A DNA stretch of 39,987 nucleotides, from the NCBI GenBank assembly GCA_017856205.1, contig JAFMFL010000004.1, forward strand, positions 1 through 39,987, given 5' to 3'. Below the pieces are notes generated by a model. That model saw nothing but the letters and a program-made list of their open reading frames with translations. It was not told the origin of the DNA and searched no databases. Both the position numbers and the translations under genes were made by a program. Origin of the DNA: Flavobacteriaceae bacterium (GTDB taxonomy: Bacteria; Bacteroidota; Bacteroidia; Flavobacteriales; Flavobacteriaceae). Positions 1 to 39,686 of the stretch are shown here, piece by piece (the first letter of the stretch is position 1; every line of letters begins with the position of its first letter).

Positions 1-155
1 CATAGAGTTTACCTGATTTCACTACAGCCGAACTGTACTTGCTTTCTGTTGCACTAGTCCTGTCCGTCAAAGACGGACGACGGGTGTTACCCGCTATGCT
101 GCGCTATGGTGTCCGGACTTTCCTCTCCGCAAGCGGAGCGATAAGGTGGCCTGCG
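1..155 (-). ncRNA. rnpB: RNase P RNA, 5' portion (3' end outside window)
   Basis: This is the catalytic RNA of ribonuclease P, which removes 5' leaders from tRNA precursors. Read on the minus strand it shows the universally conserved bacterial block GAGGAAAGTCCGG (complement of 113-125), a GC-rich hairpin just before it (CTCCGC/GCGGAG, about 125-138), the GGGTAACACCC loop element (about 80-90), and the conserved GTGCAACAGAAAG element (complement of 42-54). GGTAAACTC follows close to base 1. The molecule runs off the left edge, so its 3' half is not visible. The 5' end near 150-156 is inferred from the upstream promoter box and is uncertain by several bases. The gene is divergent from dnaX, and any dnaX reading frame upstream of 234 in this area is only antisense to the RNA. 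Confidence 0.93.
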
Positions 156-158
156 CTG

Positions 159-233: not shown

Positions 234-1958
234 ATGGGTGAATTTGTTGTATCGGCCTTAAAATACAGACCGCAAACTTTTGCGGATGTTGTGGGTCAAC
301 AAGCCATAACGCAAACATTGCAAAATGCCATTGATTTAGGAAAAATTGCCAAAGCCATGCTTTTTTGCGGTCCCAGAGGTGTTGGTAAAACTACTTGTGC
401 ACGCATTTTTGCCAAAAAAATAAACAGTGGCTCAGCACCCATTGACCCAAACGAAGATTTTGCCTTTAATGTTTTTGAGCTGGATGCAGCTTCTAACAAT
501 TCGGTGGCAGATATTCGTAGCTTGATTGAACAAGTTCGTATTCCTCCTCAAAAAGGGAATTACAAGGTGTATATCATTGATGAGGTGCACATGCTTAGTT
601 CTGCGGCGTTTAATGCCTTTTTAAAAACGCTGGAAGAACCCCCTCAGCACGCTATTTTTATTTTAGCTACTACCGAAAAGCAAAAAATCATACCAACTAT
701 TTTATCAAGATGTCAAATTTTTGATTTTAGACGTATTAGCATCAAAGACGCACAAGCGTATTTAAAAACCATCGCTGAACGCGAGGGCATCACTGCCGAA
801 GACGATGCGCTCCATTTGATTGCTCAAAAAGCAGATGGTGCTATGCGCGATGCACTCTCTATTTTTGACCGCATGGTAAGTTACTCTGGCGATACGCTAA
901 CCGCCAAGCACGTATCCTTGAATCTAAATATTCTTGATCACGACAGCTATTTAGTCTTGACTGATTTACTCAAAAAAGGAGATTTGCACGGAAGTATCTT
1001 GCAATTTAATTCGCTTATAGATTTAGGTTTTGATGGTTATCATATTATCAATGGACTGTCAAAACATTTTCGTGATTTGTTGATGTGTCAAAATGATGGG
1101 ACAACAAAATTGTTAGAAGTTGGTGCCGAGACAGAAGCCAAATTTCACGCTCAGGCGAAAGAGATTTCTGCAACGTTTTTACTTCAAGCATTGGAACTTA
1201 CCAATACTTATGCGCTACAATACAAAAGCAGCTTACATCCGCATTTGCAAGTAGAGCTTTGCTTGATGCAAATTGCCTCACTTACCGAAGGCGAAAAAAA
1301 AAAGCATAGCCCTTATATAAAACCAAAAGAACAGGTAGGTTCGACAACCCTGCCTGCCGAAACGGTTACTGAGCCTACCCTATTGGCAGACAAGCCTGAA
1401 CTATCGGCAGACAAGCCTGCCGAAAATAAGGTTGATGAGCCTGCACTATTGGCAGACGAGCCTGTTGAAGCAACTCCCATTCAATTAGACTTATCAGCAC
1501 AAGGGGTATCTGGGTTTTCTTTATCAAGCTTACGCCTACAAAAAGAGCATCAAACGAAGATGGTTGACGCTGCTGAGGAGGAAAAAATCAACAATCATGA
1601 AATACAACAAGAGGCGTTAACCGAACAATGGCAAAGCTACACCAATCAAATGACTGAAAAAGGAGAGCGCAACATGGTGGCATTGCTTCAATTGGATACA
1701 CCAAGACTTAAAAACAAAACTGAAATACACCTCAGTGTACCCAACGAAACTAACAAGTTAGAATTGGAAAAAAACAGCACACTATTGTTGCAATTTTTAA
1801 GAAAACAGTTGATTAACGATCATCTAAGTTTAGAGGTTCATGTTGACGTTAAAGAAGAAAAAAAGTTTGTTTACGCGGCAGAGGATAAATACCAAGAACT
1901 AATAAAGAAAAACCCGATGATTGAAACGTTCAAAAAGAATTTTAATCTGGAGTATTAA
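234..1958 (+). CDS. dnaX: DNA polymerase III subunit gamma/tau
   Basis: This is the AAA+ subunit of the clamp loader, which opens the beta clamp and loads it on primed DNA; tau also links the core polymerases. From the ATG at 234 the product is 574 residues. Family features are the KYRPQTFADVVGQ start, Walker A GPRGVGKTT (about 46-54), Walker B DEVH (116-119), the SRC sensor motif (158-160) and the collar helices to about residue 350. A charged linker then leads to a C-terminal tau domain. The 234 start matches where family members begin; in-frame codons before it lie antisense to rnpB. The zinc module usual between Walker A and DAASNN is reduced, with no CxxC cluster. An A10 run at 1294-1303 could produce a short gamma form of about 358 residues. 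The stop overlaps that of convergent ppx by 3 bases. Confidence 0.97.
   Translation: MGEFVVSALKYRPQTFADVVGQQAITQTLQNAIDLGKIAKAMLFCGPRGVGKTTCARIFAKKINSGSAPIDPNEDFAFNVFELDAASNNSVADIRSLIEQVRIPPQKGNYKVYIIDEVHMLSSAAFNAFLKTLEEPPQHAIFILATTEKQKIIPTILSRCQIFDFRRISIKDAQAYLKTIAEREGITAEDDALHLIAQKADGAMRDALSIFDRMVSYSGDTLTAKHVSLNLNILDHDSYLVLTDLLKKGDLHGSILQFNSLIDLGFDGYHIINGLSKHFRDLLMCQNDGTTKLLEVGAETEAKFHAQAKEISATFLLQALELTNTYALQYKSSLHPHLQVELCLMQIASLTEGEKKKHSPYIKPKEQVGSTTLPAETVTEPTLLADKPELSADKPAENKVDEPALLADEPVEATPIQLDLSAQGVSGFSLSSLRLQKEHQTKMVDAAEEEKINNHEIQQEALTEQWQSYTNQMTEKGERNMVALLQLDTPRLKNKTEIHLSVPNETNKLELEKNSTLLLQFLRKQLINDHLSLEVHVDVKEEKKFVYAAEDKYQELIKKNPMIETFKKNFNLEY
1294..1309 (+). other. Candidate slippage/frameshift site in dnaX (A10 then TAG)
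   Basis: Ten consecutive A residues (1294-1303) encode part of Glu-Lys-Lys-Lys at codons 354-357, just after the collar domain. In the -1 frame the ribosome meets GCA then TAG at 1307-1309. In the +1 frame it meets TAA at 1318-1320. In E. coli dnaX, ribosomal slippage on an A-rich heptamer makes gamma, and in Thermus transcriptional slippage on an A run does so. The position and immediate stops fit the same role here; this is inference from sequence only. Confidence 0.55.
1380..1464 (+). repeat. Three imperfect 19-bp repeats in the dnaX linker
   Basis: The unit CTATTGGCAGACAAGCCTG occurs at 1380-1398, again with one change at 1401-1419, and with one change at 1446-1464. Each encodes a Leu-(Leu/Ser)-Ala-Asp-(Lys/Glu)-Pro unit in the disordered linker between the collar and the tau C-terminal domain. 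They look like local duplications in a tolerant, low-complexity part of the protein. Confidence 0.8.
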
Positions 1959-38822: not shown

Positions 38823-39686
38823 ATGAATACGAAAAAAAAACACCAACAGGGATTCAGTGTTCCAGTTTGGTTACGCCTCATGTTCAAGAACTTAGAACGA
38901 TTATCCCCCTACTTGGCAATGCGCGCTGCAGCATATATTTTTTCAACGCCAATAAAGTTTAGCATTCCAGAAAAAGAGAAAAAAGCCCTGGCAAATTGCA
39001 TTCAAGAGCGAGTGCGTATTCCCAGTATTGATAGAGAAATTTTAACCTTCACATGGAAAAACTCAGGTAAAAAAGTGCTTCTAGCACATGGCTGGAGTGG
39101 CAGAGGAACACAACTTTATCGGATTGCAGAAACACTTCATAAAGAAGGGTATCATGTAGTCTCATACGATGCCCCTGCGCATGGTAAATCATCTGGAAAA
39201 ACAACCAACATCTTACAAATGATAGCCACGATTTCACACTTGGATGACCAATATCATGGTTTTGACTATCTCATTGGACATTCATTTGGGGGAATGGCGA
39301 TTTTCAACTATTGCAAAACACCTCGGAAAACAAAAAAAATCATAACACTTGGTGCTGCAGATAATATGCGCACGATTTTTGATAATTACATGCTGTCGTT
39401 TGGACTAAATAAAAAAACCTCAGCGCACATGATTACCTATTTTGAACGAAAATTCAAGTTAAAAATTGATGATTTTTCGCCATTTAAGGCTGTACAAAAT
39501 CTCCAAACCCCCACACTTATCCTTCATGACGAAAAAGATTATGATGTAAGTGTAGGTTCCGCCGATAACATTGCTGCGCATCACCCAAATGCTACTTTGA
39601 TTAAAACCAAAGGGCTGGGACATCGTAGAATTCTTCGCGACGAAAATGTCATGCAACACATCAAATCTTTTATTCAAACATCATGA
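38823..39686 (+). CDS. Alpha/beta hydrolase
   Basis: A 287-residue alpha/beta-hydrolase-fold enzyme without a signal peptide. The oxyanion region AHGWSGRGTQ, the YDAPAHGKSSG segment, the nucleophile elbow GHSFGG, the acidic residue in LHDEKDYDV and the catalytic His in GLGHRRIL complete a Ser-Asp-His triad. It could be an esterase or peptidase; the substrate is unknown. The ATG at 38823 was chosen because the promoter box ends five bases before it; an earlier start would lie upstream of the transcript. An A9 run (38832-38840) encodes Lys4-6. Its stop overlaps the ATG of the next gene (ATGA), so the two are coupled. Confidence 0.86.
   Translation: MNTKKKHQQGFSVPVWLRLMFKNLERLSPYLAMRAAAYIFSTPIKFSIPEKEKKALANCIQERVRIPSIDREILTFTWKNSGKKVLLAHGWSGRGTQLYRIAETLHKEGYHVVSYDAPAHGKSSGKTTNILQMIATISHLDDQYHGFDYLIGHSFGGMAIFNYCKTPRKTKKIITLGAADNMRTIFDNYMLSFGLNKKTSAHMITYFERKFKLKIDDFSPFKAVQNLQTPTLILHDEKDYDVSVGSADNIAAHHPNATLIKTKGLGHRRILRDENVMQHIKSFIQTS

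Follow-up and report, generated by a model that had tools for sequence, protein, structure and literature searches.

The dnaX gene of this Flavobacteriaceae bacterium contains a run of ten A residues, directly after the predicted collar of the clamp-loader subunit, which we interpret as a tau/gamma switch operating through RNA-polymerase slippage. We assign this reading a probability of about 0.84. The gene is found in the window, by which we mean the whole 39,987-nucleotide stretch of DNA that was analysed, and its relevant features are collected in Table 1. The RNA-DNA hybrid is described as 9-10 bp long in the consulted portion of PMC5009743, a length that A10 would fill. While the polymerase transcribes dnaX, a hybrid occupied by A10:T10 could realign by one or more bases, yielding A9, A11, A12 and other mRNAs besides the A10 form. 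The A10 and A13 mRNAs would give rise to tau (574 and 575 aa, respectively), whereas the others, whichever alternate frame they entered, would encounter a stop only a few codons later and direct the synthesis of a gamma-like subunit of 357-362 aa ending just past the collar. The computed lengths are 358 aa for A11, 362 aa for A12, 361 aa for A9 and 357 aa for A8. The preliminary description of this DNA had proposed a gamma-like form of about 358 residues beside the 574-residue tau, in agreement with the predicted A11 product.

Table 1. Positions of the dnaX features in the window
Feature	Position	Strand	Basis
dnaX, clamp-loader tau subunit, 574 aa	234..1958	+	translation, NCBIfam TIGR02397, Foldseek
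Predicted RNA stem-loop upstream of the run, abutting it	1274..1293	+	fold of -4.4 kcal/mol
Putative A10 slippage run, codons 354-357	1294..1303	+	the assembly's sole A10 inside a credible gene
TAG, -1-frame stop, for mRNA with one extra A	1307..1309	+	-1 frame reads GCA TAG
Ile codon ATA; its TA and the A that follows make up the +1-frame stop	1317..1319	+	ATA in 17/17 genus genes
TAA, +1-frame stop, for A9 or A12 mRNAs	1318..1320	+	sequence
Predicted gamma-like product, 358 aa (A11 mRNA)	234..1309	+	computed

The gene was identified as dnaX because its product matched TIGR02397 (dnaX_nterm) with 371 bits, against a cut-off of 250, and because Foldseek matched it to the E. coli gamma/tau clamp loader (best E 2.9e-26). 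PRK14971 was the top-scoring NCBIfam model, yet it remained below its own cut-off. The TIGR02397 match ended at residue 347. In the AlphaFold model of the protein (mean pLDDT 71.8), the final predicted collar helix comprised residues 336-353, with the A10 beginning one residue past it, and the pLDDT was below 50 over residues 353-451. Because the collar helix ends at residue 353 and is followed by this low-pLDDT stretch, the run lies at the end of the clamp-loader module. The codons at the run are GAA AAA AAA AAG CAT. These results bore out what had been noted from the first inspection of the sequence, namely an A10 run at codons 354-357 of dnaX, located right after the collar and with immediate stops in both other frames.

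Two further elements were observed around this site. Just upstream of dnaX, the minus strand of window positions 1-157 carries the 5' part of an RNase P RNA, a fragment clipped by the window end that scored 73.9 bits with RF00010, below the gathering score of 100. Within the tau linker, positions 1341-1464 harbor degenerate direct repeats (a 35-nt family present three times and a 22-nt family present twice) that resemble short repeats incorporated into the coding sequence.

The whole 1,411,971-base assembly contains two A10/T10 runs, one in dnaX and the other outside any credible gene. The second run (L342:1501-1510, minus strand, G000 C107) lies upstream of a gene that, by eye, we take to be dnaA, and is covered just by a mechanical 86-aa ORF on the opposite strand. 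In a sample of 222.5 kb of this genome, corresponding to 200 mechanical ORFs, we have counted four A runs of 9-13 within ORFs, dnaX included, against ~18 after synonymous resampling, and no T runs of 9-13, against ~10. This genome avoids A/T runs of at least 9 in coding sequence; according to the available part of PMC1088944, such avoidance can be used to find the slippage-prone run length of a genome. In the window, A9 had four matches, two of them within the A10, against 8.2 expected from shuffles. The A9 at 38832-38840 was taken as an internal control. Among 16 genus genes, the window's own included, three had A9 at this position and the other 13 had 5 to 8 As; this run is not conserved in the genus. 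The earlier caution that A runs are frequent here holds in that A9 is found elsewhere in the window, but does not extend to A10/T10, present just twice in the assembly, nor to coding runs.

We have then followed the run in relatives, defining it as the longest A run within 60 codons after residue 335 (70 codons for the phylum and further class sets). All 17 genus genomes, including that of the window, encoded tau in frame 0 and shared an A10 of identical phase. The family sample was composed of 149 genomes, one per genus, of which 144 had a dnaX match (5 of the 149 had none at 1e-60) and 143 were read, with the contig-end fragment G078 omitted. A run of A9 or longer was present in 141 of the 143 genes, the lengths being distributed as A10 in 115, A11 in 18, A9 in 5, A13 in 2, and A8, A12 and no run in one gene each. 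Hence, the prediction that the run would not be interrupted by AAG codons in relatives was upheld. Outside the family, A9 or longer was found in 41 of the 59 genes sampled elsewhere in the phylum, in other families (short or absent in 18), although the run in distant families is not always collinear with that of the window and some may be chance runs. The same was true for 27 of 30 further class loci and 69 of 80 named Bacteroidota loci (short or missing in 11); these sets overlap and are not summable, with L262/L389, L265/L408 and L266/L407 present in both the phylum and the further class set and the named loci possibly overlapping genomes of the other sets. Because the run is short or missing in these phylum and named loci, gamma produced by the slippage route would be dispensable in some lineages. 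The named relatives point to Flavobacteriaceae as the most likely family of the window.

Some of the genes without a run had distinct features. In L245, the one family gene of 143 in which the run was lost, the -1 frame and not frame 0 is open where tau is expected. This could be a broken gene, one using another recoding route, or an assembly error. Two gut Bacteroidales (L081 and L097) lack an A run and present an in-frame UAG at the dnaX junction, followed by a common IARSPQA(E/G)HG and then by an open tau frame; stop-codon readthrough would perhaps be their alternative way to gamma and tau. A third junction of this kind was searched for with an exact 20-base motif in viral contigs (0 found) and with a 28-base motif, allowing up to 3 mismatches, in class genomes (0/395). 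In five other loci with no A run (L062, L077, L087, L390 and L394, the first three being Bacteroidaceae-like records), we have noticed by eye a G+C-rich inverted repeat of the GGGC-N3/4-GCCC type near the junction, which in L077 reads GGGGC-GTA-GCTC.

The stops flanking the run were also conserved. Among the 116 single-ORF family genes, 108 had stops in both other frames within 6 codons, compared with a frequency of 0.197 at other dnaX positions. This was the outcome of the alignment check suggested in the preliminary description, which had been to look for a conserved run of A9 or more with nearby alternate-frame stops. In the genus, the -1 stop occurred within 3 codons in 17/17 genes and the Ile codon generating the +1 stop was always ATA, a codon used for Ile with a frequency of 0.28 elsewhere. 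In the family, ATA was found in 75/76 genes in which the next codon begins with A (0.25 elsewhere), and in 81/97 when all first Ile codons after the run were considered. The alternate-frame stops are thus held by synonymous codon choice. The bias toward ATA, and with it toward the +1 stop, is the strongest single argument for a realignment that could occur in either direction. Since the +1 frame is never reached by a ribosome shifting to -1, realignment in both directions would point to transcriptional slippage. Together with the unbroken run, the stops maintained by synonymous choice lend support to the tau/gamma switch as it was originally proposed, with its mechanism then left open.

Upstream of the run, a predicted RNA stem-loop, which the preliminary description had not mentioned, is present in the family and, more weakly, in the window's genus. 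The family consensus is an 8-bp stem located directly before the run, CUCUAUCA-CUUU-UGAUGGAG. In 142 family genes, the 30 nt upstream had a mean folding energy of -7.08 kcal/mol, against -3.47 kcal/mol after synonymous resampling, with 94/142 at rank <= 0.05; in 132/142, no more than 0-2 nt separated the end of the stem from the run. When the last 21-23 bases before the run were analysed, 93/142 were at rank 0.05. When the tested segment was aligned to codon boundaries, which leaves out the G preceding the run, this number was 39/141, and the stretch 30 nt further upstream also showed some excess (20/141 at rank 0.05). The upstream third positions were likewise synonymously constrained. In the genus, the stem-loop was more stable than its own controls in 13/17 genes, with 5/17 at rank 0.05, and the stem abutted the run in 10/17. 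The stem of the window gene has five pairs (1275-1292, 1276-1291, 1277-1290, 1278-1289 and 1279-1287), one bulge (A1288) and a possible G-U pair at 1274-1293. Its fold had a rank of 0.16, or 0.55 with a longer stretch; taken alone, the stem-loop of the window gene is not exceptional.

The consensus stem is common to many family genes, hence we have tested the diverged ones. Among 64 distinct sequences differing at 4 or more positions from the consensus arms, 53 were more stable than the mean of their own resampled versions, and rank <= 0.05 was reached by 16, where ~3 were expected. With at least 8 differences, the corresponding values were 24/30 and 6/30 (rank 0.05). The covariation score was 0.213, against 0.162 for shuffled alignments (0/500 reached it) and at most 0.120 when the stem was slid. 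Covariation in this fixed register was moderate: like the score, the numbers of paired cells and of doubly changed cells exceeded those of every one of 500 shuffles. The other two of the five measures failed against shuffling, namely pairs with double changes (42/500) and further pair types (77/500), and on these two some slid versions matched or surpassed the stem. Changes of Watson-Crick type on the tree numbered 11, 7 and 6 at three pairs and 0-2 at the other five. In the most diverged rows (at least 6 differences), the advantage of fixed-register pairing over shuffled arms faded (0.542 vs. 0.519, 204/2000); these rows may have changed pairing register.

The stem-loop was unsupported in a further 42 genes, comprising 41 from other families and the same-family gene L261 (-4.70 vs. 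-4.61 kcal/mol, 1/42 at rank 0.05). The named loci with a long enough run (69 of 80) gave a mixed picture, with -6.09 vs. -3.69 kcal/mol and 23/69 at rank 0.05. Hairpin strength followed no clean trend with run length (A9, n=5; A11, n=18). Overall, the comparisons supported the existence in the family of a stem-loop that would be maintained beyond protein coding and in diverged sequences. Formed in the nascent RNA 0-2 bases before the run, it would probably stimulate slippage in the family through polymerase pausing and hybrid loosening.

The frame in which tau is encoded was found to vary around the run, which among dnaX genes occurs in all three codon phases. In the family, tau was in frame 0 in 116 genes, in the -1 frame in 21 and in the +1 frame in 3, and could not be assigned for 2 of the 143 genes, whose contigs were too short. 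The split layout, with tau not in frame 0, was present in 24/143 family relatives, where gamma is the frame-0 product. We have counted 20 layout changes on a FastTree tree of 158 DnaX N-termini, a soft figure (shuffled mean of 22.6) from a tree in which 12/155 inner branches are well supported and several long branches meet; at least 5 changes are forced by the well-supported branches. The base following the run also changed. Because the run ends in AAC, and not AAG, in 6/17 genus genes, and AAG is found at its end in 30/142 family genes, A_AAA_AAG is not the conserved element. The varying phase, following base and tau frame would favor RNA-polymerase slippage over frameshifting of the E. coli type, and mixed shift directions are taken as a criterion for transcriptional realignment in the portion of PMC3711429 available to us.

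We have considered whether the run could reflect a lysine-rich tract needed by the protein alone, with no short product being made. Indeed, the KK pair is strongly conserved: in alignment A2 (26 proteins), K356 is invariant and K355 is shared by at least 90%. At the codon level, though, the 116 single-ORF family genes showed complete identity at alignment columns 354, 355 and 356, whereas Lys is encoded by AAA at 0.757 of the other positions of family dnaX genes, and their other KK tracts comprised A9 or more in 7/652 cases. Of the 568 seven-codon windows scanned, 350-356 was the most synonymously constrained, and the start codons of the top 12 all fell within 345-356. A need for lysines would account neither for the presence of the run in all three codon phases nor for the maintenance of the alternate-frame stops and stem-loop; this reading is already contradicted, and we hold it to be very improbable. 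Even less credit is given to phase variation at the DNA level, in which replication slippage would toggle tau on and off. A long mononucleotide run inside an ORF, ranging from A8 to A13 across genera, would be compatible with such a process, but the genus genomes, with proteins 70-88% identical, share exactly A10 and its phase, and dnaX is expected to be essential.

A ribosomal -1 frameshift of the E. coli dnaX type, in which tRNA-Lys slips on A_AAA_AAG and translation stops after GCA TAG, has more in its favor. The window gene has both the in-frame A_AAA_AAG and the immediate -1 stop, and tRNA-Lys UUU was the only tRNA-Lys found in the assembly (82.6% complete). Many family genes carry a Shine-Dalgarno-like GGAG 5' of the run, a sequence that is also the 3' arm of the stem and that reads GGCG in the window. 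In the genus, a mild excess of downstream folding was detected between +6 and +66 (mean of -9.32 vs. -7.48, 2/17 at rank 0.05 for this stretch; 2-3/17 in the downstream test as a whole), but a downstream stem-loop was without excess in the family (10-11/116 at rank 0.05). The replacement of AAG by AAC in part of the genus, and by a different codon in the majority of the family, also argues against this mechanism, as does tau being in the +1 frame in three relatives. Furthermore, synonymous selection acts on the +1 stop, which a -1 ribosomal shift would not need, and the 5' stem abuts the run, where a ribosome positioned on the run would be expected to cover it. We consider ribosomal frameshifting unlikely, though it may contribute in this organism, and retain slippage of the RNA polymerase as the preferred explanation. 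A G+C-rich hairpin drawn by eye ~30 bases downstream, in the linker of the window gene, was set aside for being too distant.

The sequence comparisons establish the run and its place after the collar, its conservation beyond what protein coding requires, the selection on both stops and the family stem-loop. From them we infer the occurrence and extent of slippage in dnaX, the synthesis and use of both products, and the action of the stem-loop on the process. For the family as a whole, we lean, at slightly better than even odds, toward a broader proposal. The dnaX gene would be decoded by stem-loop-stimulated slippage, which would be old in Bacteroidota; tau and gamma would have repeatedly exchanged the role of frame-0 product; and both forms would be needed, with their ratio set at transcription. 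Within this proposal, the need for both clamp-loader forms would be suggested by lineages having flipped the frame-0 product repeatedly while keeping the slippage run.

Slippage at the Thermus dnaX and its proposal for split dnaX genes are already known. Apparently new are how deeply the run is conserved, the selection on both stops, the repeated layout flips around one run and the 5' stem-loop of the family. Among open-licence PMC titles and abstract starts, we have found no report of a 5' stem-loop or of phylum-wide slippage in Bacteroidota dnaX, and likewise none of selection on both stops or of layout flips around the run. The role of gamma in E. coli was long disputed before it was settled, according to the consulted part of a review (PMC5009743). 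Selection on both-frame stops over 116 genera with single-ORF genes would indicate that there is a benefit in retaining a truncated clamp-loader subunit well beyond the model bacteria. These dnaX genes could also provide a natural set of slippage sites, some having a 5' stem-loop and others lacking one, for studying RNA-polymerase realignment. In addition, there is a warning for annotation: the split dnaX genes of this phylum, seemingly truncated or frameshifted, are probably intact.

When compared with known systems, the window dnaX shares with that of E. coli the gene, the outcome (predicted here) and an in-frame A_AAA_AAG. It differs in that its family is without a downstream stem-loop, conserves stops in both frames and does not conserve AAG. 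Stem-loop-mediated slippage was reportedly described by Penno in 2015 in a Roseiflexus insertion sequence. As presented in the accessible text of PMC5009743, the enabling feature of that site is an inverted repeat immediately 5' of the slippage motif, and the family dnaX genes similarly have an inverted repeat directly 5' of theirs. The Roseiflexus site described there is a T5C5 heteropolymer in a mobile element and leads to one-base deletion only, whereas here we have A10 in a replication gene, with realignment expected in both directions.

Split dnaX genes that need recoding to produce tau were reported by Antonov in 2013 (PMC3711429, consulted in part) in 17 genes from 12 genera, nine of them with A10, and slippage was proposed for them. 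These genes and the window dnaX are alike in carrying an A run at the gamma/tau junction. The new cases in that text consist of two ORFs, in contrast to the single ORF with tau in frame 0 found here, although their layout recurs in the split family relatives mentioned above.

The closest parallel is provided by the dnaX of Thermus thermophilus, in which transcriptional slippage takes place on A9, as stated in the available parts of PMC1088944 and PMC5009743. Both genes encode tau in a single ORF and have a homopolymeric A run with near stops in both other frames, the short product being gamma in Thermus and a predicted gamma-like form in the window dnaX. The Thermus site is located seven-eighths along the gene in the consulted portion of PMC1088944, compared with ~62% here, right past the collar. 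The available sections of PMC1088944 and PMC5009743 do not mention a 5' stem-loop for the Thermus site, unlike what we have found in the flavobacterial family. Heterogeneous mRNAs have been shown in Thermus, whereas the window dnaX is known from its sequence. In its layout, the window dnaX belongs with the slippage systems of the Thermus type, and it probably produces a gamma-like subunit.
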